NCBI RefSeq assembly: GCF_000526155.1
Contig: NZ_JAFN01000001.1
Coordinates: 3,350,264-3,414,263 of the forward strand
Direction: 5' to 3'
Origin: Deferrisoma camini S3R1
GTDB taxonomy: Bacteria; Desulfobacterota; Deferrisomatia; Deferrisomatales; Deferrisomataceae
Length of the DNA stretch: 64,000 bases
In this document: positions 2,568 to 58,412 of the stretch, one piece after another
Layout of the letters: each line of letters starts with the position of its first letter
Numbering within the stretch: position 1 is the stretch's first letter
Position numbers and translations under genes: made by a program
The notes under the pieces: model-generated
Databases searched by the model: none
Seen by the model: only the letters and a program-made list of their open reading frames with translations
What the model was told of the DNA's origin: nothing

Positions 2568-3770
2568 TCATGGATTCAGGCGCGGGCCTGCCCCCTGGGG
2601 GACCACCTCGGCGGGGCCCAGCGTCAGGTGTTGGGCCAGGTCCAGGTCCAGGTCGGGAACCGGCTCGCCCACCAGATCGATCCGCTCCACCCGGATCGGG
2701 GGCACCCGGTTCTCCCGGTAGCTCTCGGCCGACACCCGGGCCCGGCCCACCGAGTACCCCTTGCGGTACGCGAACACCTCGTAGTCCCCCCCGAACAGCG
2801 GCCGGTCGGCCGGCTCCCCCTCCTTGGGCGTGAGCACCTTCCTGCGGGAGATCCGGAACGCCCCCGCCTCGTCGGACAGCACCTCCATGGTGTAGGGCGA
2901 GGTCCATACCTCCATCCCCGCCAGCGGCGCCCCCCGCTCGTCCCGGACCTCGCCCACCAGGACGGTGGGGGTGACCCGGATGGGGATGTCCGCCTGGATC
3001 TCGGCGAACGAGTCGGCCGGGATCTCCACCTTCACCTCCCGGGCCTTCTGGAACCGGGGGTCCTTGATGTCGAGGTTCAGTTTCACGGCCACCGGCAGCT
3101 TGGGGATCCCCTCGATCCGGAACCGGCCGGTGTCGTCGGTGCGGGCGATCACGAACCGGTCGAGCTTGATCAGCACCTGGCCCAGGGGCAGGTCCCGGTC
3201 CACGGTCTCGGCCAGCCGCAGCCGGCCCTCCAGGGTGGTGCCCGGGAACGTGGGGTAGCTCTCCTTCATCTTCAGCCGGAACACCTCCCGGGCGATCCGG
3301 GCCCGGTACTTGCTCTTGGGGAAGAACCCGAGGAACTCCAGGTAGGCCGGGATGCGGTTCGTGCGGATCACCCGGGCCGCGGCCTCGCGTTCGGACTCGC
3401 GGGCCAACCGGTCGCCGGGGGACACCGAGAACCGCCCCGCCGGCTTGAGCAGATACACGCCCTTGTCCAGCTCCCGCTCGATCACGGCCTTGCCCACCCT
3501 GCGCATCCCCTGGCCGAACACCACCATCCACTCCCGGGGCTTGGCCCCCCCCGGGATCTCGGCCACCACCGGCCCCCCCCGGGAGAAGATGACCGTTCCG
3601 ATGAACACGTCCTTGCCCTTCCGGGGGCGCACCGCCGGCCGGGGGCGCGAGGTCTCAGGGGCCAACAGGACGGGTTTCCTGACCTTGATGGCGGCGTGCC
3701 CCCGTGCTGGCACGGCGACCACGGCGGCCGCCAGAAAGAGGGTCACGGTGATCCTTCGCAAACCAGCCAT
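2568..3770 (-). CDS. Exported protein with carboxypeptidase-regulatory-like beta domains
   Basis: 400 residues from the ATG at 3770. This start is preferred over upstream codons because it opens a good signal peptide (MAGLRRITVTLFLAAAVVAV...GHA). Two segments resemble CarboxypepD_reg/transthyretin-like domains: about 175-235 (GRL...TDDTGRFRIEGIP) and 265-330 (GEVRDERGAPLAGMEVW followed by SDEAGAFRIS). The central part also has a predicted SH3-like or LysM-like stretch (DRLARESEREAAARV) that I cannot assign. It is likely periplasmic or outer-membrane associated. It is transcribed toward the PEGA protein. Function unknown. Confidence 0.7.
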   Translation of the reverse strand: MAGLRRITVTLFLAAAVVAVPARGHAAIKVRKPVLLAPETSRPRPAVRPRKGKDVFIGTVIFSRGGPVVAEIPGGAKPREWMVVFGQGMRRVGKAVIERELDKGVYLLKPAGRFSVSPGDRLARESEREAAARVIRTNRIPAYLEFLGFFPKSKYRARIAREVFRLKMKESYPTFPGTTLEGRLRLAETVDRDLPLGQVLIKLDRFVIARTDDTGRFRIEGIPKLPVAVKLNLDIKDPRFQKAREVKVEIPADSFAEIQADIPIRVTPTVLVGEVRDERGAPLAGMEVWTSPYTMEVLSDEAGAFRISRRKVLTPKEGEPADRPLFGGDYEVFAYRKGYSVGRARVSAESYRENRVPPIRVERIDLVGEPVPDLDLDLAQHLTLGPAEVVPQGAGPRLNP

Positions 3771-3939
3771 GCCACGGCCTCCTCCAGGGGTTGGATCGGC
3801 AAGGACCAAGGTGAGGTCTGATAGCACAAACCGTGCCGGGCGTCCAAGGTGCCTCCCGGCCGAAGTCGGCCGGAGGGCTGGTCTTCGTGGGGTCATCCGG
3901 GCTGAGTCTTATCGCGCACGAGCAGGCGAAATGCCCCCG

Positions 3940-4012
3940 GCAACGGTCGTTGCGAGCGGTCGGTTTCGATGCTACAGTCAGCATCCTTTTCTTTTCGGAA
4001 CCGCAAGCGGTT
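3940..4012 (+). promoter_or_regulatory. Candidate promoter and two palindromes ahead of the 35-haem cytochrome
   Basis: The 405-base divergent spacer 3771-4175 holds no gene. A sigma70-like promoter fits TTGCGA (3950-3955), a 17-base spacer and TACAGT (3973-3978). A 6+2+6 palindrome GCAACGGTCGTTGC (3940-3953) overlaps the -35, as an operator would. A second one, AACCGCAAGCGGTT (3999-4012), lies just downstream of the expected start site. These are sequence matches only. Confidence 0.4.
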
Positions 4013-4175
4013 TCTTGACGGCGCGAGGCGGTCCCGTTTCGGGGGGGAGGCCTTCCGCCACACAGCAGGCCTCCCCGCTTCGGCCCCTCCCCCGGGAGAC
4101 CCTTCGGCGGCGTCCGGCCACCCGTTCGGGGCGTCGATCCAACGGTCGCCCGCGCATCCGGAAGGTCCGACACCC

Positions 4176-6989
4176 ATGCACCCCTCCCCTGGCACACGTC
4201 GCCGTCCCATCGGAAAGCTCCGGGCCCTGGCGGTGGGGCTGGGCCTCTTGGGCGCAGCGATCCTCCCCCGGTCCGTGGGGGCCGGGGAGGTCAGCATCAT
4301 CGCCCCTGTGGACGGCTCGGTGGTGAAAGAGGACTCCCTGCTCATCCTGGGCGCGGCGCCCCGGGGCAGCCAGGTCCCGTGGTCCGTGCGGAGCGCCTCG
4401 GGCGTGCTCGAGGACTCCGCCCGGGCGGACTGGGGCGACCTGTTCGAGATCTTCGTGCTGCTGGACCCCGGGCTCAACGAGTTCCAGATCGGGGATCGGC
4501 GGCTTCGGGTGTTCTACGACGACGGGTCCCGGGAGCCGCCCGAGGGGTTCCGGCCGGTGCGCGTGCACGCGGGCGACGTGTCGCGATGCTCCGACTGCCA
4601 CGACCGGCTGAGCATGGAGCTGCTCGAGGGGGGCTACCCCGGCGTGTGCCTGGCCTGCCACGTGGTCGTGTCGGTGAACCCCGCCAACCAGGGGCCCGCC
4701 ACGGACACCCCCCATTTCCGGAAGGCCGTGGCCCGGTGCGGCCGGTGCCACGAGCCCCACGCCTCCCTGGACCCCAAGCTGCTCCGCAGGCCCGGGCCGG
4801 AGCTGTGCCGGTCGTGCCACCCCGAGCGGACCGTGTCGGACGCCTCCCATCCGGTGCTGGCCGAGGAGGGGTGCTCGGCCTGCCACGACTCCCACTACTC
4901 GGGGTACCCCAACGACCTCCACAAGCCACAGCCCGAGCTGTGTCAGGACTGCCACGACCAGGGCGGGGGGGACGCGGAGGGCCTTCACCCGCCCCTGGTG
5001 GAGGAGAGGTCCTGCTCCACCTGCCACGACCCCCACGGCGATCAGCCCGGGCTCCTGCGCTCGGGGCTGCCGGACCTGTGCCTGGGCTGCCACGAGACGG
5101 TCATGGACCAGGGCCACGGCGACACGCTGGCCGAGTGCACCCGGTGCCACGATCCCCACGGCCGCACCGACCGGGGGCTGCTCGGAGACGGGGTCAGCCC
5201 CAGGTGCCTCGAATGCCACGAGGGGATCGACCGGGGCGAGACGGTCCACCCGGCGCTGCAGGAGGGGTGCCAGGCCTGCCACGATCCCCATGCCGACGAC
5301 AGCGTGGAGCAGGCCCGGGTCTCCTGCGGCAAATGTCACGATCTCCAGGGGGACGAGGAGCTGGGGGCCCTGCACGGCGGGCTGTCGATCCCGGCCGGGG
5401 CGTGCCTGCGCTGCCATCCGGCCCACGCCGCCGATGGGGACCGGCTCGTCCGGGGTCGGCTCCACCCCCCCCTGGCCAAGGGCAAGTGCACGGTGTGCCA
5501 CGGCGGCGGGGCGGACCGGAGCATCCGGATCGAGAACCCCGCTACCCGCTGCCGCATGTGCCACTCGTTCGAGAAAGACCTGCGGGAGGCGGGGGCCAGG
5601 GAGCACGACCCGGTGGCCGGGGGCGAGTGCACGGCCTGCCACGACCCCCACATGTCGTCGGAGCCCGCGTTCCTGCGGGGGCCCCAGCCCGAGGTGTGCG
5701 GCCGGTGCCACGACGAGGCCCGGCTGGGACCCGGCCGGGAGCGTCACCCCGCGGCCGAGACCTGCACCGATTGCCACGGCGCCCACGGCGGGCGGGGACC
5801 GGCGTTCCTGGCATCCCAACCCCCGGAGCTGTGCCTCGACTGCCACGACGACCCAACCGAGGGGCTGGAGAGCCCCCATCCCGCGGTCGAGGAGGGGTGC
5901 CTCGTGTGCCACGATCCCCACCAGGGGTTCCGGCCGGGGTACCTGAAGGGCGACACCCCGCGGGCGGCCTGCCAGGAGTGCCACGACGTGCCCGACCTGT
6001 CGGAGGGCCGCACGCTCCATTCCGCGGCCGACACCTGCACGGCCTGCCACGACCCCCACGGCCGGGGCGGCCCCCGGTACCTGGCCTCGCAGCCGCCGGA
6101 CCTGTGCCTGGAGTGTCACGACGACCCGGCCGAGGGGGTGGAGGATCCCCACCCGGCCCTGGAGGAGGGGTGCCTCGTGTGCCACAGCCCCCACAGCGGG
6201 TTCGGGGGGGCGAACCTGGTGAAGCCCCAGCGGGAGCTGTGCCTCGGCTGCCACGACGATCCGGCCGAAGGGTTCCCCCGGGTCCACGCCCCGGCGCGGG
6301 ACCGGTGCTCCGGGTGCCACGACCCCCACGGCGACGCATCCGCAGCCCTGTTGAAGGAGGCGCGCCCCGGTCTGTGCCTGGGCTGCCACGCGGTCCAGGC
6401 GCCGGCCTCCGGCCGACCGGCCCACCCGCCCGCGGCCGAGGACTGCGCCAACTGCCACGAGGAGGCCCCCCACGGCGGCACCTCGCCCCGGTTCCTCCCG
6501 AAGACCCCGCCGGAGCTGTGCCTGGAGTGCCACGACGACCCGCGCGAGGGGGCCCAGACCCTGCACCCGGCCCTGGAGGAGGGGTGCCTGGTGTGCCACG
6601 ATCCCCATCGGGGAGCCCGGCCGGGGTTCCTGCGGGGCGCCGACGCCAACGCCCCCTGCCTGGACTGCCACGAGGTGCTGACCGGAAAGCCCGTGCGGCA
6701 CGCCGCCCTGGATCAGGGGTGCACGGTGTGCCACGATCCCCACCGTGCGGATGCCGAGCACCAGCTGCGCAGGCCCGGCAATGCCCTGTGCCTGGGGTGC
6801 CACGACCTGACCGGCCACGCCCACACCGTGGACGTGGCCCGGGGGGAGCGGTTCCCCGGGGCCCGAGGGTTTCCCACGGACGGCGGACAGTACCTGTGCA
6901 CGGGATGCCACGCCCCCCACGAGGCGGAGGACGAGGGGCTGTTCATCCGGCCCCGCGAGGTGCTGTGCCAGGAGTGCCACCGGATCTGA
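4176..6989 (+). CDS. Exported multiheme c-type cytochrome with 35 CxxCH motifs
   Basis: 937 residues from the ATG at 4176, chosen because it opens a signal peptide (RRRPIGKLRALAVGLGLLG, cut near VGAGE). Residues 40-135 look like an Ig-like beta domain (APVDGSVVKEDSLLILGAAP). From about residue 138 to the C-terminus I count 35 CxxCH haem c sites, spaced about 14-36 residues and mostly paired as in the doubled-CXXCH family (CLECHDDP...EEGCLVCHDPH). HP and DPH histidines between sites can serve as distal ligands. The length and haem number suit an electron conduit outside the inner membrane. The neighbouring sensor kinase/sigma54 regulator may control it. No membrane anchor or lipobox is seen, so partner proteins must supply localisation. 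Confidence 0.93.
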   Translation: MHPSPGTRRRPIGKLRALAVGLGLLGAAILPRSVGAGEVSIIAPVDGSVVKEDSLLILGAAPRGSQVPWSVRSASGVLEDSARADWGDLFEIFVLLDPGLNEFQIGDRRLRVFYDDGSREPPEGFRPVRVHAGDVSRCSDCHDRLSMELLEGGYPGVCLACHVVVSVNPANQGPATDTPHFRKAVARCGRCHEPHASLDPKLLRRPGPELCRSCHPERTVSDASHPVLAEEGCSACHDSHYSGYPNDLHKPQPELCQDCHDQGGGDAEGLHPPLVEERSCSTCHDPHGDQPGLLRSGLPDLCLGCHETVMDQGHGDTLAECTRCHDPHGRTDRGLLGDGVSPRCLECHEGIDRGETVHPALQEGCQACHDPHADDSVEQARVSCGKCHDLQGDEELGALHGGLSIPAGACLRCHPAHAADGDRLVRGRLHPPLAKGKCTVCHGGGADRSIRIENPATRCRMCHSFEKDLREAGAREHDPVAGGECTACHDPHMSSEPAFLRGPQPEVCGRCHDEARLGPGRERHPAAETCTDCHGAHGGRGPAFLASQPPELCLDCHDDPTEGLESPHPAVEEGCLVCHDPHQGFRPGYLKGDTPRAACQECHDVPDLSEGRTLHSAADTCTACHDPHGRGGPRYLASQPPDLCLECHDDPAEGVEDPHPALEEGCLVCHSPHSGFGGANLVKPQRELCLGCHDDPAEGFPRVHAPARDRCSGCHDPHGDASAALLKEARPGLCLGCHAVQAPASGRPAHPPAAEDCANCHEEAPHGGTSPRFLPKTPPELCLECHDDPREGAQTLHPALEEGCLVCHDPHRGARPGFLRGADANAPCLDCHEVLTGKPVRHAALDQGCTVCHDPHRADAEHQLRRPGNALCLGCHDLTGHAHTVDVARGERFPGARGFPTDGGQYLCTGCHAPHEAEDEGLFIRPREVLCQECHRI

Positions 6990-7068
6990 TCCCTCCCCTG
7001 TCGGCCGCCAGGGTTCCGTGGTAAGAGGAACCGACGGACCCCTTGCCTTCTCCCAGGAACGATTCCCG

Positions 7069-8199
7069 ATGCGCGAGCGGTTGGCCAGCCTGCTCCTTTC
7101 ATCCATGCGCTGCGGCGTGATCGCGGTGGACGCCGAGGGCACCGTGATGCTCTGGAACCGTCCGGCGTCCGAGATTCTGGGCATCGGGCCGGAGGGTGCC
7201 GAGGGGCGCCACTGCCGGGAGGTGCTCGCCCCGTACCCGGCCCTGGCCCACCTGCTGCTGGAGGCCCTGGGCCGCACTACCCTGCCCGACCGGGCCGAGC
7301 TCGAGCTGGAGCGGCCGGAAGGCGGGCGGGAGCTGGTGGGGTTCAGCCTCTCGCGGGTGGAGGCCCCGGACGGGGCCGTGCTGGGCTCGGCCCTGTTCTT
7401 CAAGGACCTGACCGTGGTCGAGGAGGAGCGGGAGCGGGAGGCCCTGCGCAGCCGGCTGGCCAGCCTGGGGGAGGTGGCCGCCCAGCTGGCCCACGAGATC
7501 CGCAACCGCCTGGGGGGCATCCGCTTGTTCCTGGGCCTGGCGCGGCGCAGACTGGACCACGACCCCGAGGGGACGGAGTTCCTGGACCGGGCCGAGCAGG
7601 AGCTCCTGGAGGCGAACCGGAAAATGGGGGAGATCCTGGCCTTCGTGCGGCCCCTGCGGCTCGAGACCGGGCCGGTGGACGTCGAGGCGCTGTGCCGGGA
7701 GGCTTGGCAGGGGGTGGTGGCCCGGTTCGGGGGGGAGGCGCCGCGTCTGCGCTGGGAGGCGGCGCCCCAACTGCCCCCGGCCCGGGCCGACCGGGAGAAG
7801 CTGCGGGACGCCCTGTCCAACGTGCTGGCCAATGCGGTCGAGGCGGCCGGGCCCGAGGGAAACGTGCGGGTTCGGCTCTCGCTGGAGGAGGTGCCCACCC
7901 TGGTGGCCGAACCGGGAGCGACCGCGCTCCCTGGGCTGCGGCAGTTCGAGCAGCACCCGGCCGCCCGGCTGCGCATCGAGGTGGAGGACGACGGCCCCGG
8001 CATGGAGCCGGAGGTGCTCCGGCGGGTGTTTCACCCCTTCTTCACCACCAAGGAGGGCGGCTCGGGCCTGGGGGTTCCCACGGCCCAGAAGATCCTGGAC
8101 GCCCACGGCGGAGGCCTGGACGTGACCTCCGAGCCGGGCCGGGGGACCCGGTTCGTGCTGCGGGTGCCGGTGGTCACCGAGGAGACGGAACGTGGCTGA
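7069..8199 (+). CDS. PAS-domain sensor histidine kinase (NtrB-like)
   Basis: 376 residues from the ATG at 7069, which has AGGA about 11 bases upstream; an earlier GTG at 7018 lacks a ribosome site. Residues 10-125 form a PAS domain (GVIAVDAEGTVMLWN). The phospho-acceptor box is QLAHEIRNRLGG at about 142. The ATP-binding part has the N box (NVLANAVEAAG), DDGPGM, HPFFTTKEGGSGLG and GRGTRF. No membrane segment is present, so it is cytoplasmic. It overlaps the next gene by eight bases and is surely the cognate kinase of that NtrC-type regulator. The signal sensed is unknown; redox or electron-acceptor status is a guess from the adjacent cytochrome. Confidence 0.92.
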   Translation: MRERLASLLLSSMRCGVIAVDAEGTVMLWNRPASEILGIGPEGAEGRHCREVLAPYPALAHLLLEALGRTTLPDRAELELERPEGGRELVGFSLSRVEAPDGAVLGSALFFKDLTVVEEEREREALRSRLASLGEVAAQLAHEIRNRLGGIRLFLGLARRRLDHDPEGTEFLDRAEQELLEANRKMGEILAFVRPLRLETGPVDVEALCREAWQGVVARFGGEAPRLRWEAAPQLPPARADREKLRDALSNVLANAVEAAGPEGNVRVRLSLEEVPTLVAEPGATALPGLRQFEQHPAARLRIEVEDDGPGMEPEVLRRVFHPFFTTKEGGSGLGVPTAQKILDAHGGGLDVTSEPGRGTRFVLRVPVVTEETERG

Positions 8200-9628
8200 C
8201 ATTCTGATCGTGGAGGACCACGCGGCCCTGCGGGACGCCCTTGCCATCGCGGCCGGGGCCCGGGGCCACCGGGTGGTCACGGCCGAACGGGGGGACGCGG
8301 CGGTGCGGGCGCTGGAGAGCCGCTCGTTCGACCTGGTGGTGACCGACCTCAAGCTGCCCGGGGCCGACGGGTTCGCCGTGCTCGAGGCCGTGCGGGCCCA
8401 CCAGCCGCGCACGCCCGTGGTCGTGATGACCGCCCACGGATCCATGGAGGCGGCGGTGCGGGCCCTCCGGCTGGGGGCCCTGGACTTCATCGAGAAGCCG
8501 TTCGACATCGACGAGATGGAGGCCCGGATCGAACGGGCCCTGCAGCAGGGGGACCTGGCCGAGACCGTGCGGGGCCTGCGCGAGCACCTGCTCGAGCCCT
8601 ACCGGCCCGAGAACATCGTGGGCGACAGCCCGGGCATCCGGGCCGCCCTGGATCTGGCCCGGAAGGTGGCGCCGGCCCCCACCACCGTGCTGATCACGGG
8701 GGAGACGGGCACCGGCAAGGAGCTGGTGGCGGGCGCGATCCACGCCATGGGCCCGCGGCGCGAGGGGGAGTTCGTGGCGGTGAACTGCGCGGCCGTGCCC
8801 GACACCCTGCTGGAGAGCGAGCTGTTCGGGTACGAGCGCGGCGCGTTCACCGGGGCGGCGCGCCGGCGCGTGGGGCGGTTCGAGCGGGCCCACGGCGGCA
8901 CCCTGTTTCTGGACGAGATCGGCGACATGAGCCTGGCCACCCAGGCCAAGATCCTGCGGGCCATCGAGGACGGCCGCATCGAGCGGCTGGGCGGCGACGC
9001 GCCCCTGGAGGTGGACGTCCGGATCATCGCGGCCACCCACCGGGACCTGTCGGAGATGGTGCGGCAGGGCAAGTTCCGGGAGGATCTGTTCTACCGGCTG
9101 AACGTGGTCACCATCCGGCTGCCGCCCCTGCGGGAGCGGGGGGACGACGTGATCCTGCTGGCCCGCCACTTCGCCCGGCAGTTCTGCACCGAGTTCAAGC
9201 GCCCGCCCGTGGAGTTCGGCGACGACGCCATGGAGACCCTGCGGCGCCACCCCTGGCCCGGCAACGTCCGGGAGCTCCGAAACGCGGTGGAGCGGGCCGT
9301 GCTCCTCAGCGAGGGGCCGGTGATCTCGGCGTCGGACCTGGGGTTGCCCGAGGCGGCGCCCCCGGTTCCCAAGGACTGGGAGGGGGAGGCGTTCCGGTTT
9401 TACTTCCCCCCGGGCGGGGTGCGCCTGGACGTGGCGGAGAAGGAGCTCCTGCTGGCCGCCCTGCGCCGGGCCCGGTGGGTGCAGAAGGACGCCGCCCGGC
9501 TGCTGGGCATCACCAAGAGGGCCATCCACTACAAGATCGAGAAGTACGGGATCACTCACCCCTCCTGGACCAAGAACCGGCCCCCCCCGGACCCGGAGGG
9601 TGACACCGGCCCGGCGGATCGGGTATAG
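8192..9628 (+). CDS. Sigma54-dependent response regulator, NtrC family
   Basis: 478 residues; the GTG start at 8192 overlaps the kinase stop and follows GGAGACGG. Domains in order: receiver with phospho-acceptor Asp52 (VVTDLKLPGADG); AAA+ domain with Walker A GETGTGKE near 170, the sigma54-contact loop GAFTGA near 217 and Walker B GGTLFLDEIGD; and a Fis-type helix-turn-helix at the C-terminus (DAARLLGITKRAIHYKIEKYG). All key residues for a sigma54 activator are present. It acts on -24/-12 promoters. I found no clean -24/-12 site in front of the cytochrome gene, so its target may lie elsewhere. Confidence 0.95.
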   Translation: MADILIVEDHAALRDALAIAAGARGHRVVTAERGDAAVRALESRSFDLVVTDLKLPGADGFAVLEAVRAHQPRTPVVVMTAHGSMEAAVRALRLGALDFIEKPFDIDEMEARIERALQQGDLAETVRGLREHLLEPYRPENIVGDSPGIRAALDLARKVAPAPTTVLITGETGTGKELVAGAIHAMGPRREGEFVAVNCAAVPDTLLESELFGYERGAFTGAARRRVGRFERAHGGTLFLDEIGDMSLATQAKILRAIEDGRIERLGGDAPLEVDVRIIAATHRDLSEMVRQGKFREDLFYRLNVVTIRLPPLRERGDDVILLARHFARQFCTEFKRPPVEFGDDAMETLRRHPWPGNVRELRNAVERAVLLSEGPVISASDLGLPEAAPPVPKDWEGEAFRFYFPPGGVRLDVAEKELLLAALRRARWVQKDAARLLGITKRAIHYKIEKYGITHPSWTKNRPPPDPEGDTGPADRV

Positions 9629-10153: not shown

Positions 10154-10216
10154 CCCGCAGCGGCCGATGGGGGCTTCTCAGTGCCGGAGCCGAGCAGACA
10201 AGGGTTGGATCGAACG

Positions 10217-10705
10217 ATGAACCGAGACGAGCTCCTTTTGCGGGGCGCTGACGACTTCGTGCGCCTCGACAGCCTGTGCTCCGATCTGCTCCAGGAGTTC
10301 GCGGCCTGGCTGCGCGACCATCAGGGGCGCACCCCCCTCGAGGCGGGGGGCCTGGCCCACCAGGCCGACCGGTACCTGCGGGACTTCGTGGTGGACTGTA
10401 AGGAGACCGGGCCGGCGGACGAGGACCCCACCCTGGTGCGCCAGTACCTGGCCAACTGGTACATCGTGCACACCCTCTACCCCACCCACGACGAGATCGA
10501 CCGGATCCGGGAGGCCCTGGTGCTGCTCTACCGGTTCCTGATGGATCGGGGCGTGGTGGGGGAGGCGGCCTGCCGGGCGGCCGAGGCCGCCCTGGCGGAC
10601 GCCGGGTACTTCCACGCCCGGCTGGAGGCATTCTGGAACCTCACGCCGGAGGAGATCGACCCCTGGCGGGCCCAGGACGACTACCGCCGCCGGCGGCAGG
10701 GCTAG
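10217..10705 (+). CDS. Uncharacterised cytoplasmic helical protein
   Basis: 162 residues from the ATG at 10217; a GTG at 10181 is in frame but would add a tail of low complexity. The protein is mostly helical and acidic, with no signal peptide, membrane span or metal-binding cluster. Its central part (YLRDFVVDCKETGPADED then VRQYLANWYIVHTLYPTHDE) is compact and looks globular. It stands alone between intergenic repeats. I do not recognise the family and give no function. Confidence 0.6.
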   Translation: MNRDELLLRGADDFVRLDSLCSDLLQEFAAWLRDHQGRTPLEAGGLAHQADRYLRDFVVDCKETGPADEDPTLVRQYLANWYIVHTLYPTHDEIDRIREALVLLYRFLMDRGVVGEAACRAAEAALADAGYFHARLEAFWNLTPEEIDPWRAQDDYRRRRQG

Positions 10706-43436: not shown

Positions 43437-45467
43437 TCAGAGCTGGGCCGAGACCGTGACGTAGTAGCTGCGGCCGGGCAGCGGGAACCCCAGGGCGTCC
43501 GACACCTGCTCGTCGGTCAGGTTCTTGAGCTCGAACGTGACGGTCAGGCCCCGGCCGGGTTGAACCGACAGCCCCAGATTGTGGATGCGCCGGGTCTCGG
43601 CCTTCTCGAAGTTGGCCGCGTCCAGGTAGTTGCCCGAGGTCCACGAGAGTTCGTGGAACACCTTGCCCCATCCAAAGAGCAGCTCCAACCGGTTGAACAG
43701 CTCGTGCTCGGGCCGGGCCGGGAGCTGGTTGCCCCGGTAGTAGGGGATGTCGCTGGTGTTCTCGGTGTGCTGGAAGGTGTAGTTGCCGCTGACGGCCAAC
43801 CGCCGGGTCACCTCGAGGCTCCAGGCGGTCTCCAGGCCCCAGACCCAGGCGCTCGACACGTTGGTGGCCCGTACGGTGCGCTGGGAGGTCTGCTCGAACA
43901 GGATCAGGTCGTCGGTGCGGCTCTGGAAGTAGGCGGCCTCCAGATGGACCCGGCCGGCCGGCCAGACCGGATCCACCGCAACCCCGAGGTCCCAGTTGAC
44001 CCCCCGCTCGGGCACCAGCTCGGGGTTGCCGATCACCGTGCCGCGATCGCCGAACAGCTCGGTCAGGGTGGGGAACCGGTAGGCCCGGGCCGCGTTGGCC
44101 CGGACCTTGATCCAGGGGCGGGGTTGGTAGGAGAGCCCCAGCCGGTACGTCCAGTACCCCCGGTCGTCCGGGGAGGGGAGCTCCTTCCAGGAGAACGGCG
44201 CCCGGCCGCCGAATTCGTGGTCGAGGAAGGTGTAGAGCACCTGGGGCACCAGCACGAGGCGGTCGTCCAGGAGGTAGACCTCGTCCTCGACCCCGGCCTG
44301 GTAGGTGGTGCGCTCCTGGGTGTCGCCCTCGGCCGGCTCGGCGAGCTCGTCGCGGGACTCGGCCCGCTCGTTCCGGTAGGCCCCCAGCAGGGTGAGCACC
44401 TGGTGCTCGCCCCAGTAGTAGGTGAGCATGCCATCCGCGCCCCAGCCGACGGTCTCGTTCACGTTGTCCTGGCGGCCCACCCCGATCTCGCCCAGCGGGT
44501 CCAGGAAGGCGGTGGTCTCGTCGATCCGGTGCAGGAACAGCTCCGCGCCCAGGTTCTCGGAGAGGAACTCGTCGCGCACGGCCCGCACCGACAGCACGTT
44601 GCGATAGGTGCGAAGCCGCGCCGTGTCCGATTGGTTCGAGCCGATCCCGGGCACGCCCTCGCGTTTGTCGAAGTAGTCGTCCGAGAGCTCGAGGCGCAGC
44701 ACCGGCGAGGGCTCCCAGGAGAACTTGGCCAGGAGGTTACGGGCGTAGAAGGCGTTGTTGCGGCGGGTGGTGGTCTCGTCGTCGTCCGGGTTGGCTCGGG
44801 TGCCGTTGTCGTCCAGGAACTCGAAGTCCCCGTCGGACGAGGTGTAGCTGCCCGAGACCAGGAGCCCCAGCCGGTCGCCCTTCCACGAGACCACGCCCCG
44901 CGTGTCCAGGGTGTCGAACGAGCCGTAGGTGGCGTCGGCCCGGGCGTTCCAGCCCTGCTTCGCCTTGCGGGTCACGATGTTGATCACACCCCCGATGGCC
45001 GGGGAGCGCAGCCGCAGGGGCGACGCGCCCCGGTACACCTCGATCCGCTCCACGTCGCCCAGGGGGAGGTCGCCGAGGTTCACCAGACCGGTGCCGGGGC
45101 CGGCCAGCGGCACGCCGTCCAGGAGCACCGCCACCTGCTGGGCCGTGGACCCGCGGATCGACGCCGTGGAGAACGCGCCCAGGCCGCCGAACCGGCGGAT
45201 CGTGAGGCCCACCGACTGCTCCAGGACCTCCGGAACCGAGGTGGCCTTCTCCTGGAAGCTCTCGGCCGGGATCACCGTGACCGCGGCCGTGCGTTCCGGG
45301 GTCTCCGTCGGCTCCGGGGGCGGCGCCTCGGCAGACACCACCACCTCTTGGAGAACGGGGCTCTCATCCGCGGGCGCGGGGTGGGCGCGGAATGCCAGCA
45401 GCAGGGCCAGCCCCACGACGGCCCGGACGGATCTCCCCACACGTTGGCGATACGTGCAGCGTTCCAT
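43437..45467 (-). CDS. btuB: TonB-dependent outer-membrane corrinoid receptor
   Basis: 676 residues from the ATG at 45467 with GAGAGGAG upstream. Signal peptide to about residue 33, then a TonB box (VLQEVVVSA). The plug has ESFQEKATSVPEVLEQSVGL, STASIRGSTAQQVAVLLDGV and DVERIEVYRGASPLRL. The barrel ends in the aromatic-type closing strand SYYVTVSAQL. The gene is headed by a cobalamin riboswitch, the best evidence that the ligand is a corrinoid; size is close to that of BtuB. Confidence 0.92.
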   Translation of the reverse strand: MERCTYRQRVGRSVRAVVGLALLLAFRAHPAPADESPVLQEVVVSAEAPPPEPTETPERTAAVTVIPAESFQEKATSVPEVLEQSVGLTIRRFGGLGAFSTASIRGSTAQQVAVLLDGVPLAGPGTGLVNLGDLPLGDVERIEVYRGASPLRLRSPAIGGVINIVTRKAKQGWNARADATYGSFDTLDTRGVVSWKGDRLGLLVSGSYTSSDGDFEFLDDNGTRANPDDDETTTRRNNAFYARNLLAKFSWEPSPVLRLELSDDYFDKREGVPGIGSNQSDTARLRTYRNVLSVRAVRDEFLSENLGAELFLHRIDETTAFLDPLGEIGVGRQDNVNETVGWGADGMLTYYWGEHQVLTLLGAYRNERAESRDELAEPAEGDTQERTTYQAGVEDEVYLLDDRLVLVPQVLYTFLDHEFGGRAPFSWKELPSPDDRGYWTYRLGLSYQPRPWIKVRANAARAYRFPTLTELFGDRGTVIGNPELVPERGVNWDLGVAVDPVWPAGRVHLEAAYFQSRTDDLILFEQTSQRTVRATNVSSAWVWGLETAWSLEVTRRLAVSGNYTFQHTENTSDIPYYRGNQLPARPEHELFNRLELLFGWGKVFHELSWTSGNYLDAANFEKAETRRIHNLGLSVQPGRGLTVTFELKNLTDEQVSDALGFPLPGRSYYVTVSAQL

Positions 45468-45504
45468 CGGCTCCTCTCGAAACCGAGCCCTGGATGGGGC
45501 GACG

Positions 45505-45775
45505 AAAAAAGCCCGCACGCCATGGACGGCGTGCGGGCTTCCCGTTTTCGAAGCACCGCTTCAGGGGCCCACCCTCCCAAAAGCCCGGGGAGGTTCGCGT
45601 GGGCCGCCCAGCCGGCAGGTCTTCTGGCTCGCGATTCATCCTCCGGGCCGCCTTCCCAGCCTCTCGGCCAGTGGCATCCGTGGCCCTTCGTCCTCGCTTA
45701 CAGCGGCGGGTCCGCGGGGGACTTGCACCCCACTTCCCTTTTCAGCCCCAAGAGGCACCGGCGGGCAGATTCGAT
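45505..45775 (-). ncRNA. Cobalamin riboswitch with terminator, ahead of btuB
   Basis: On the minus strand the aptamer core reads GGCTGAAAAGGGAA, then GGTGCAAGTCCCCCGCGGAC, CCGCCGCTGTAAGCG, a GCCACTGG element, and the B12-box region AGCCAGAAGACCTGCCGGC (45630-45611). It is followed by a perfect stem AAGCCCGCACGCC / GGCGTGCGGGCTT (45540-45509) and a run of T, an intrinsic terminator. Ligand binding should stop transcription before btuB. Nearly the same sequence lies at 50037-50310. Confidence 0.93.
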
Positions 45776-46039: not shown

Positions 46040-47140
46040 TTAGAACTCCACGGCGAGCTGGGCGGTCACCAGGTCCCGGGAGTCCACCCCTCCCCCAAAG
46101 TCCTCGTCGTACTCCCCGTGCAGGTACTCCAAGCTCAGGCTCACCCCCTCCATGGGCCCCCACGAAACGACCGCCCCGTACTGGAGCTCCGGCTGCCCCC
46201 CCAGCTCCCGGCTCCCCTCCACACGCACCGCCACCTCCACCACCTCGCTCACGTCCCACGCCCCCTCCACGTTCCACGCCAGCGGCCGGTCCCCCCTGCC
46301 GTCCTCGTCCTCGTCCAGGTCCGCCTCGTCAAACGCCCCCACCGAACCCAGCACCTCCCCCAACACCTCGAACGGCCCGAACCCCACCACCGCATACGCG
46401 CTCCATCCCCCCACCCGGTCCCGGTACTCCCCCACCAGCTCCGCGTCCGTGTCCGCCAGGTCCGACAAAAAGCTCGCCCCCACCTCCACCCCCTCCACCG
46501 GCGTCACCACCACGCTCACCCCCCAGTCCTTCACGTGGTCCTCCTCCGCTTCCCCCGCCCCGTTCACCTTCTCCGTGTCCCCGTTGAACACGAACGCGCT
46601 CGCCGTCCATCCCTCCCCCTCGTACCCCACCTGCACCGCCGTCTCCCGGATCTCGCCCAGCTCCAGGGTCAGGGGGTCCGAGATCATGTGGCTCGGGTAC
46701 GCCCCGAACGGCAGGTACTGGCGGCCGAACCGGGCGGTCCAGCCGTCTCGGGCGTAGTCCACGGTGGCCTCGTCCACCTCGATGGGCTCGGTCTCGTCCT
46801 CCTCGAACAGCAGCACCAGGGCGGCGGTGAGCTGGTCGTTGACCTGGGCGTCGAACCCGAGCTGGGCGGTGGCCACGGTGAGGTCGCTGGTGGCCTCGCG
46901 GTCGCCGTCGGCAGGGTCGGTGCTCTCGTAGGCGGCCTCGAGCTCGAGCAGGCCGGAGAACGAGATCTTCTCGGAGATCTTGGTCATCAGGCCCGCCTGC
47001 TTCTTCTGCTGCAGGGTGTGGTAGAGCTCGGCGTTCTTCTTCTCCAACGCCTCCACCCGTTCCTCCAGCGTGGTCGCGGCCGAGGCGAGCGGAAAGGCGA
47101 GGACCAGGGCGGTTGCGGCGGTGAGACGGCGGGTCAACAT
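46040..47140 (-). CDS. LbtU-like outer-membrane porin
   Basis: 366 residues from the ATG at 47140, GGAGGAA upstream. Signal peptide to about residue 21, then a short coiled coil (TLEERVEALEKKNAELYHTL) and a beta barrel of alternating strands (FSGLLELEAAYEST, LTVATAQLGFDAQVN, ending LVTAQLAVEF with a terminal Phe). This layout is that of the LbtU family, first known as a siderophore receptor of Legionella that works without TonB. Acidic loops (EEDETEPIEVDE, DEADLDEDEDGRGD) could bind cations. The nearby cobalt-chelatase genes raise the possibility of metal or corrinoid passage. The ligand is not known. The 45791-46039 spacer downstream shows no gene. Confidence 0.75.
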   Translation of the reverse strand: MLTRRLTAATALVLAFPLASAATTLEERVEALEKKNAELYHTLQQKKQAGLMTKISEKISFSGLLELEAAYESTDPADGDREATSDLTVATAQLGFDAQVNDQLTAALVLLFEEDETEPIEVDEATVDYARDGWTARFGRQYLPFGAYPSHMISDPLTLELGEIRETAVQVGYEGEGWTASAFVFNGDTEKVNGAGEAEEDHVKDWGVSVVVTPVEGVEVGASFLSDLADTDAELVGEYRDRVGGWSAYAVVGFGPFEVLGEVLGSVGAFDEADLDEDEDGRGDRPLAWNVEGAWDVSEVVEVAVRVEGSRELGGQPELQYGAVVSWGPMEGVSLSLEYLHGEYDEDFGGGVDSRDLVTAQLAVEF

Positions 47141-47224
47141 CGGTCGTCTTCCTCCCAAGAACTTCAGTGGTCAGTGATCAGTGGTCAGTCGGGCCTGTGG
47201 CCGGGTAGGCGAAAAAGGCGTCTG

Positions 47225-58025: not shown

Positions 58026-58412
58026 CTACCCGGCCCGCATCAGTTTGTAGCTTTTTTGGCTTCCGTGGGGGTCGTGGCACGAAAGGCAGCGGCCGCCCGC
58101 CTTGGTGTGCTGGGTTCCGGTTCCCCGCTCGTGGCACAGCAGGCACAGCCGTGCCGGCTTGGTCTTGAACCGGAACTTCCCGGCCTTCTTGGCGGTGCAG
58201 GCCGGGCCCGCGGGCACGTGGCACGACACGCACCCCGGCGCCCCCGCCTGTTCGGCCGCCACGGGGCCGTGGAGGAACTGGGGCGCCATGAGGTCCTGGT
58301 GGCAGCCCCCGTCCACGCAGCTCCCCGCGGTTGCCGGCGCGCAGGTGACGACCAGGATCGCCGCCACGGCGAACGCGGCCGAGCCGAGCACTCGGAATCG
58401 TCGGTGGGTCAT
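58026..58412 (-). CDS. Small exported tetrahaem-type cytochrome c
   Basis: 128 residues, GGGAG upstream. Signal peptide to about residue 30. Four haem sites: an unusual CX4CH (Cys32, Cys37, His38) and three CxxCH (61-65, 90-94, 109-113), the last followed by DPHGS as in doubled-CXXCH cytochromes. CX4CH haem sites are known in cytochromes c3. It would be a soluble periplasmic electron carrier. It is placed between aspS and hisS, an odd setting for a respiratory protein. Confidence 0.88.

Follow-up and report, generated by a model that had tools for sequence, protein, structure and literature searches.

The window analyzed here, a 64,000-nucleotide stretch of the Deferrisoma camini S3R1 genome, contains on its forward strand a gene for a paired-CXXCH cytochrome of 937 amino acids with 35 haem sites (positions 4176 to 6989), as judged by its reading frame, motif count, Pfam matches and orthologues. 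An earlier sequence-only reading had given this number, and a count by program found it exact: 35 CxxCH motifs occur in the frame, a stop codon follows residue 937, and no motif occurs in the five alternative frames of the same region. Shuffling the cytochrome sequence 5,000 times gave a mean of 0.40 motifs and a maximum of 5. Of the 319 frames in the window that run from stop to stop over 100 amino acids or more, 315 lack the motif; besides the single frame with 35, there is one with 3 and there are two with a single motif each. The protein matches two paired-CXXCH models above their cutoffs, PF09699 with 438.5 bits and TIGR01905 with 373.4 bits, each over 14 stretches. An orthologue from the same genus shows 89% amino acid identity, an equal mature length, and coincidence of all 35 motif positions, with a dN/dS of 0.25. 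By this sequence comparison the 35-motif cytochrome is a real gene, and a sequencing artefact that breaks the frame, which had been named as a possible source of error, is ruled out by the identical motif layout.

The protein begins with a Sec-like leader peptide (4176 to 4283), recognized by inspection of the sequence only, that has no lipobox cysteine. No membrane anchor or lipobox was seen anywhere on the cytochrome. The leader is followed by an Ig-like beta domain of eight strands (4284 to 4523; mature residues 1 to 80), modelled with confidence (pLDDT blocks of 66 to 92). Its best fold match among the matches listed is a glucodextranase domain, 1ug9 (Z of 9.9, rmsd of 1.6 over 74 aligned residues). 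Both the exported leader and the N-terminal Ig-like domain had been proposed from the letters alone, and both are borne out. The Ig-like head is present in 11 of the 12 Deferrisomatales genomes, and a Pfam search with the head alone gave zero matches. The mature protein contains 72 histidines, 35 of them proximal and 37 others, or about one spare histidine per haem, and no cysteine lies outside the CxxCH motifs. Nearly every segment between motifs holds a spare histidine, whose offset from the motif switches between 7 and about 15 along the chain, and we infer that every haem is bis-histidine ligated. The mature chain amounts to 25.7 amino acids, or 2.75 kDa, per haem, and the cytochrome therefore falls in the "peptide minimized" class of multihaem proteins, which is described as serving electron transfer only (PMC7096707, section 7).

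A match to the cytochrome was found in all 12 Deferrisomatales genomes. The nine full-length orthologues of the order have 23, 25, 29, 31, 31, 31, 35, 35, and 35 haems, and what they have in common is the first 20 and the last 3. The conserved head (haems 1 to 20; 4587 to 5969) has nearly fixed motif spacing across the nine, and the conserved tail (haems 33 to 35; 6789 to 6986) is kept in all of them. Between the two lies an optional array (haems 21 to 32; 5970 to 6788), which is represented by 0, 2, 6, 8, or 12 haems in the orthologues, so that the differences in length are whole haem pairs in the middle. The present protein has the Ig-like head, 20-haem head and 3-haem tail that define an order-wide family of Ig-headed putative wires. 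A strict rule of odd haem numbers was considered and set aside; all nine full-length orthologues are odd, yet they provide only five distinct counts, and one further copy (G011) has 18 motifs and ends without the tail. The claim is therefore limited to changes in pairs. One relative (L008) carries 41 motifs.

The haem-pair modules are related to each other as well. Two-haem modules are 35 to 65% identical in amino acid sequence to their best partner inside the same cytochrome. The longest DNA repeat family in the gene (D1) is 241 nucleotides and represents a four-haem duplication unit, with a reference copy at 5705 to 5945, a second copy at 5978 to 6218 (74% nucleotide identity, offset by 273 nucleotides, which equals four haems), and a third at 6392 to 6632 (63% identity), all on the forward strand. 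These repeats support the view that the cytochrome was built from haem-pair modules duplicated within the gene. The sequence-only reading had described the units as near-identical and had suggested growth by internal duplication; the repeats stand, but the near-identity does not, and duplication is unlikely to be the whole account. The 23- and 25-haem variants are nested in a clade whose remaining members have 35, so haem-pair loss is likely to have shaped the family in addition to duplication.

Divergent to the cytochrome gene, on the reverse strand, are three non-haem genes with export signals. The nearest encodes a protein of 400 amino acids with a leader, seen by inspection, and a CarboxypepD_reg domain (2568 to 3770). 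The next encodes 536 amino acids with a leader, likewise seen by inspection, and four PEGA stretches (721 to 2331); no other frame with PEGA was found in this genome. The third is a TPR protein whose N terminus resembles that of a lipoprotein and whose start is inferred at a TTG; its window part spans 1 to 752, and it runs past the window edge to window coordinate -771. Its hydrophobic leader ends in a cysteine in 9 of the 10 genomes read. Each member of this triad (CarboxypepD-like, PEGA/TPR, and lipoprotein-like TPR) adjoins the cytochrome in all 9 other loci tested. The CarboxypepD-like partner is confined to 11 of 395 genomes of the phylum, all of them Deferrisomatales, and its tree and that of the cytochrome head divide into the same two main clades. 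Downstream of the cytochrome, on the forward strand, are a PAS sensor histidine kinase (7018 to 8199) and a sigma-54 response regulator (8192 to 9628), both also downstream in 5 of the 9 other loci, and a small protein with no assigned function (10181 to 10705) that is near the cytochrome in 8 of the 9. Genes were first called by a script using GC content by codon position, and some of its calls where GC is high are certainly wrong. Sigma-54 promoter patterns with at most one mismatch gave no match in the divergent region (3771 to 4175) and 13 matches in the window, which is within chance.

No porin or second haem gene adjoins the cytochrome by Pfam between -771 and 10705, and MtrB_PioB (PF11854) gave 0 matches in this genome and 1 weak match across the 12 Deferrisomatales genomes. 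A porin-cytochrome cluster of the MtrAB type was rejected on these grounds. The earlier statement that no porin, lipobox or partner conduit gene lies beside the cytochrome is correct as to a porin or a second haem gene, but it is incomplete, since it overlooked the conserved triad with its lipoprotein-like member.

By sequence and by modelled fold, the cytochrome appears closer to MtrA than to OmcS or OmcZ. The match to MtrA was 2.1e-16 by phmmer and 1.1e-23 by profile search, and the NCBIfam model for DmsE-type decahaem proteins (TIGR03508) scored 304.9 bits, summed over seven stretches, against a cutoff of 192.2. The 67-row repeat alignment (510 columns) was out of register, and a 10-haem fragment was folded from 14 rows chosen for staying in register, with 53 dropped, a choice that favors regular modules. 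The fragment model, made without haem and of moderate confidence (pLDDT of 62.1), matched MtrA (6r2q_A) with an E of 1.9e-6, a probability of 1.00, and a TMq of 0.53. The haem region of the full-length model, also made without haem, is poor (mean pLDDT of 44.8); among the matches listed, where a single domain occupies most entries, residues 391 to 555 matched 6r2q_A with a Z of 8.2. Weak sequence matches were obtained to OmcS (6ef8, 4.5e-4) and OmcE (7tfs, 9e-6). An OmcS/OmcZ-type subunit as the nearest relative was therefore rejected, since sequence and fold both favor MtrA. The electron wire envisaged by the sequence-only reading remains plausible, although its likeness to OmcS and OmcZ is the weaker one. 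The Geobacter proteins OmcS, OmcE, and OmcZ are polymerizing subunits of 4 to 8 haems each; a stacked haem wire is the idea in common, whereas the present protein has 35 haems in one chain. With the MtrA/DmsE decahaem proteins (6r2q chain A; TIGR03508) the cytochrome shares the paired-CXXCH module and its distal-histidine CxxCH-x-PH motif, and the sequence of its haem-pair array and the fragment fold place it with them. However, members of that family carry ten haems in about 330 amino acids and function within an MtrB-type porin whose gene is adjacent, and the cytochrome has 35 motifs in 937; it adds an Ig-like head and an optional middle array to the MtrA plan, and no MtrB-type porin was found alongside it or in the rest of the genome.

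Giant multihaem wires and bridging of the periplasm are already known, and the 35-haem family is no record. It had been placed at the high end of known cytochromes, a claim not supported as it stands, given single proteins with 85 to 86 haem motifs already in print (PMC7096707, PMC5566968, PMC9012536) and the relative with 41. The PCC3 cytochromes of iron oxidizers, compared here by published description, have many haems, repeats, and 22 to 39 amino acids per haem, and in the portion of PMC5566968 that describes them they are proposed to span the periplasm, as we propose for the 35-haem cytochrome. At 25.7 amino acids per haem the latter lies within their range. PCC3 genes are clustered with genes for a large porin and for an inner-membrane protein of five helices (PMC5566968), whereas the 35-haem gene adjoins the triad and a two-component system; no PCC3-type beta-barrel, extracellular cytochrome, or inner-membrane protein was found by Pfam between -771 and 10705. 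The large multihaem cytochromes of ANME (PMC9012536) likewise carry tens of motifs on one exported polypeptide, but they are archaeal, and in their types A and B an S-layer domain is combined with a membrane helix at the C terminus; an S-layer-type domain is not listed by Pfam for the 35-haem protein. Closer at hand, a leader, an Ig-like head, and a paired-CXXCH array are also seen together in cytochromes from other parts of the phylum (G032, G069, G270, and G299) and in paralogues in the D. camini genome. These relatives and paralogues have 4 to 28 motifs; two paralogues have 24 and 17, and a third, whose head is alike by eye, has 10. A search found the CarboxypepD-like partner with none of them. 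Literature searches, with subscription papers and preprints outside their scope, gave no description of the 35-haem family and no paper for multiheme with Ig-like domain, for Deferrisomatales with cytochrome or heme, or for a PEGA domain with Geobacter cytochrome clusters.

The interpretation that we prefer, with about an even chance of being right, is that the cytochrome is an exported, soluble wire of the MtrA type whose length is adjustable. It would probably span the periplasm, kept in place by the triad; its location and its conduction are what we infer. The haems would stack in a single line, as in MtrA, and that line would be about 26 nm long, extrapolated from the relation of haem number to length in PMC7096707. 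While the cell respires external acceptors, such a wire would be the path for electrons between the cytochromes of the inner membrane and those of the outer membrane. The triad would scaffold the wire or anchor it to a membrane, and the Ig-like head would serve for docking. Where present, the sensor kinase and sigma-54 regulator may control the cytochrome. Counting against a periplasmic bridge are the lack of an MtrB-type porin match in the genome and of an inner-membrane quinol oxidase beside the gene, which leaves the two ends of the wire unassigned, and the span of about 17 to 26 nm expected for 23 to 35 haems, which is wide for one compartment.

The Ig-like head and the lipoprotein-like partner would equally suit a wire on the cell surface or outside the cell, docked by that head and the lipoprotein and PEGA proteins and donating to minerals, electrodes, or partner cells, an alternative that we regard as possible but distinctly less probable. 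The cysteine ending the leader of the TPR partner in 9 of 10 genomes favors it, and there are parallels in the OetF cytochrome, which has a fibronectin-type domain and is placed with an extracellular conduit in the relevant section of PMC10553843, and in the median of 34 motifs that the PCC3 portion of PMC5566968 gives for extracellular cytochromes. The cytochrome itself has no lipobox or membrane anchor, however, there is neither an adjoining porin nor an MtrB_PioB match in the genome, and MtrA, the nearest solved relative, is located at the periplasmic and outer-membrane side. Quite unlikely, in our estimation, is an electron store, a periplasmic capacitor buffering up to 35 electrons while an acceptor is absent and needing no contact with both membranes. 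A haem number free to vary between fixed ends fits loose selection on capacity rather than reach, and storage is among the roles that PMC7096707 gives for the peptide-minimized class, but the near-invariant spacing over the first 20 haems suggests a defined shape, and the fixed triad suggests a placed part, not a free reservoir.

Two further possibilities seem to us very improbable. A terminal reductase would have some haems lacking a sixth ligand and would reduce substrate directly, and the segments after haems 1, 14, and 35 indeed have no following histidine. There are nonetheless 37 spare histidines for 35 haems, and His 131, which precedes haem 1, and the doubled histidines in segments 5, 13, 32, and 33 could fill these gaps; moreover, multihaem proteins that are catalytic have >7 kDa per haem (PMC7096707), far more than the 2.75 kDa of this cytochrome. 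The motifs could also be relics in a decaying gene or a largely unfilled apoprotein with few haems attached, and PMC7096707 does call full haem loading of such proteins unknown. It is hard to reconcile such decay with the agreement of 35 of 35 motif positions at a dN/dS of 0.25 or with the match in every one of the 12 Deferrisomatales genomes.

Single multihaem proteins of about 27 haems have been proposed to be able to cross the whole periplasm, with the need for so many haems and their full loading called unclear (PMC7096707). A more specific and rather doubtful extension of the periplasmic wire is that it acts as a ruler, in which the number of haem pairs would tune the reach to the periplasm or partner gap of each lineage, between a fixed docking head and exit tail, clamped by the CarboxypepD-like/PEGA/lipoprotein-TPR scaffold. 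If that were true, it would provide an electron route without an MtrB-type porin complex of its own. The family offers, among related genomes, natural length variants of 23 to 35 haems that share both ends and have fixed candidate partners, and it is suited to asking whether wire length matches reach or is mere capacity. The host belongs to an iron-reducing group. With constant ends and lengths that change by two haems, the family is a good case for what sets the length of a biological wire.

The 35-haem cytochrome of Deferrisoma camini is encoded by an open frame at 4176-6989 on the plus strand (937 amino acids plus stop), in a window at G000:C1:3350264-3414263; the genome is one contig of 4,236,551 bases. 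A count by program gave exactly the 35 CxxCH motifs that a sequence-only reading had reported. The five other frames across 4176-6989 contained no CxxCH motif, and shuffling the cytochrome (n=5000 shuffles) gave a mean of 0.40 and a maximum of 5. The same-genus orthologue (G007, locus L045) has an equal mature length, 89% amino acid and 91% nucleotide identity, and all 35 motifs at the same positions (35/35), with a dN/dS of 0.25 (NG86) between the two. Judged by these sequence comparisons, the gene is real. Matches at an E value of ≤1e-20 occurred in 12/12 genomes of the order Deferrisomatales, part of them being paralogues, and the Ig-headed form was present in 11 of the 12; the twelfth (G005, 650 contigs) has just a 273-amino-acid C-terminal piece at a contig edge. 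Fe(III) reduction is known for the genus Deferrisoma (PMC10052568, PMC9769843).

The protein consists of a hydrophobic leader, an Ig-like domain (mature residues 1 to 80), and then the 35 haem motifs. The exported leader of the earlier reading was retained by inspection, and its Ig-like domain by the full-length model, in which this is the sole confident region, and by a match to glucodextranase 1ug9 (Z 9.9). Of the 72 His residues of the mature chain, 35 belong to motifs, and every Cys lies within a CxxCH motif. In the regular part, motif spacing is 22/23, and a spare His lies 7 residues past one motif and ∼15 past the next, so that one distal His per haem is possible; all haems would then be bis-His. 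The polypeptide amounts to 2.75 kDa, or 25.7 amino acids, per haem.

Full-length orthologues were available from nine of the 12 Deferrisomatales genomes. There are 35 motifs in G000 (D. camini), G007, and G010, 31 in G001, G002, and G004, 29 in G003, 25 in G009, and 23 in G008. The three other genomes are incomplete at the cytochrome; in G006 it lies in two pieces, of 15 and 4 motifs, at two separate contig edges, and G011 has one copy with 18 motifs that ends without the tail and a second copy, of 29 motifs, lying at the edge of a contig. Aligned, all nine full-length orthologues (9/9) share their first 20 haems and their last 3, motif spacing across haems 1 to 20 is nearly invariant among them, and the G008 protein consists of these 20 + 3 haems alone. 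The optional middle therefore comprises 0, 2, 6, 8, or 12 haems.

Within the middle, some two-haem modules were closer to a module of their own protein than to any from another genome: 3/15 typed modules in G000, 2/15 in G010, 3/13 in G002, 3/13 in G004, and 2/14 in G003, with near relatives excluded for G000 and G002 and modules off the a-b pattern left untyped. A 241-nucleotide DNA unit is also repeated at an offset of 273 nucleotides, equal to four haems, with 74% identity. Because of these two observations, duplication within the gene is supported at the sequence level, as had been proposed, but growth by itself probably does not account for the family, since the 23- and 25-haem forms are nested in a clade of 35-haem forms in the trees. 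G000 and G010, which belong to two families, have the 35-haem layout in common, down to an odd module near haems 27 and 28, and the short forms of G008 and G009 come from those same two families. The simplest reading is that whole modules have been lost as well as gained.

Searched against solved structures, the cytochrome matched 6r2q_A, the MtrA chain of the Mtr complex, at 2.1e-16 by phmmer; by profile it matched 6r2q_A at 1.1e-23, ahead of OmcE (9e-6; 7tfs, which we take to be OmcE) and OmcS (4.5e-4). The structure listing labels 6r2q_A "Structure of the Mtr complex" and the sequence file "Cystathionine beta-synthase," a name that would mislead a reader who goes by labels. A fragment covering ten haems (window 5691-6368) was modelled together with 13 in-register repeats taken from relatives; the haem-free model had a mean pLDDT of 62.1 and a pTM of 0.44. 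Among solved structures, Foldseek once more placed 6r2q_A first for this fragment (E 1.9e-6, prob 1.00, TMq 0.53, 26% identity), and the second match stood at 0.021. Residues 391 to 555 of the haem-free full-length model aligned with 6r2q_A over 156 residues (rmsd 3.8) at a Z of 8.2, barely above the usual background. Because sequence, profile, and fragment fold all match 6r2q_A, the haem array is most aptly described as an MtrA-type chain of extended length. Of the comparisons suggested earlier, the one with OmcS/OmcZ-like filaments holds less well, MtrA being nearer in both profile and fragment fold.

Divergent from the cytochrome lie three minus-strand genes, encoding a CarboxypepD_reg protein (2568-3770, 400 amino acids), a PEGA protein (721-2331, 536 amino acids), both with hydrophobic leaders by inspection, and a TPR protein that runs beyond the window (752 to −771). 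Each of the three adjoins the cytochrome in 9/9 other loci examined, spanning four families, and in G006, as the tenth genome, a CarboxypepD-like gene and the cytochrome piece are neighbours on one small contig. The CarboxypepD-like protein was found in 11/395 genomes of the phylum, 11/11 of them within the 12 Deferrisomatales genomes, with extra copies away from any cytochrome in two of the 11. No PEGA frame other than that of the PEGA protein was found in the D. camini genome. In 9/10 genomes read, a Cys closes the hydrophobic leader of the TPR protein; only some fit a strict lipobox. Downstream, a small uncharacterised protein is kept in 8/9 loci and a sensor kinase with a sigma-54 regulator in 5/9. 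The earlier statement that no porin, lipobox, or partner conduit gene lies beside the cytochrome overlooked this conserved triad, although the missing lipobox agrees with the lack of Cys outside the motifs. A search for the MtrB_PioB porin family alone found none in the D. camini genome and one weak match among the 12 Deferrisomatales genomes. A Porin_4/Porin_O_P barrel (46040-47158, minus strand) and a TonB-dependent receptor (43437-45518, minus strand) are ∼40 kb from the cytochrome, with no sign of a link.

Related haem proteins occur elsewhere. Like architecture is seen in D. camini paralogues of 24 and 17 motifs and, judged by eye, in a further one of 10. The 24-motif paralogue (frame at L057:8166-10316) has 24 motifs in 10/10 frames read (loci L031 to L037 and L040 to L042), unlike the variable-length 35-haem family. 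Outside Deferrisomatales, the Ig head was found in 4/384 genomes, where the adjoining arrays have 4 to 28 motifs, and a Candidatus Krumholzibacteriota contig carries a 41-motif relative without an Ig head (L008:7887-11009), in a cluster with seven or more multihaem frames. In an unrelated genome, a 17-motif frame is directly followed by a 6-motif frame in the same direction (L109:7784-9865), apparently one gene split by a single stop. The window itself has a small second cytochrome gene (58026-58412, minus strand, 128 amino acids, 3 CxxCH, Paired_CXXCH match). Two large haem frames of D. camini, L054:6630-9809 (near 325 kb, 30 CxxCH) and L055:5611-9759 (near 3,710 kb, 24 CxxCH), are, with the smaller cytochromes adjoining each, candidates for the outer conduit of the organism.

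In peptide-minimized cytochromes, haem number is linear with length, and ∼27 haems are estimated for a 200-Å periplasm (PMC7096707). On that scale, we computed ∼26 nm for 35 haems and 17 to 26 nm for the orthologues. This length, the relation to MtrA, and the missing lipobox are why we favor, at about even confidence, a periplasmic bridge with a scaffold. A surface wire, which would also be compatible with the Ig head and the triad, we consider rather unlikely, and electron storage seems quite improbable. As to novelty, PMC5566968, PMC7096707, and PMC9012536 describe proteins of 85 to 86 motifs and periplasm-spanning repeats with 22 to 39 amino acids per haem, so the 35 haems that the earlier reading placed at the high end for known cytochromes do not mark the known limit. 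The literature searched contained no description of a Deferrisomatales-wide family whose ends are fixed, whose haem pairs are in part optional, and which has a divergent triad beside it. Giant multihaem and periplasm-spanning proteins are thus known already; what appears to be new here is a variant in which haem pairs come and go between fixed ends and a triad lies divergently beside the gene.
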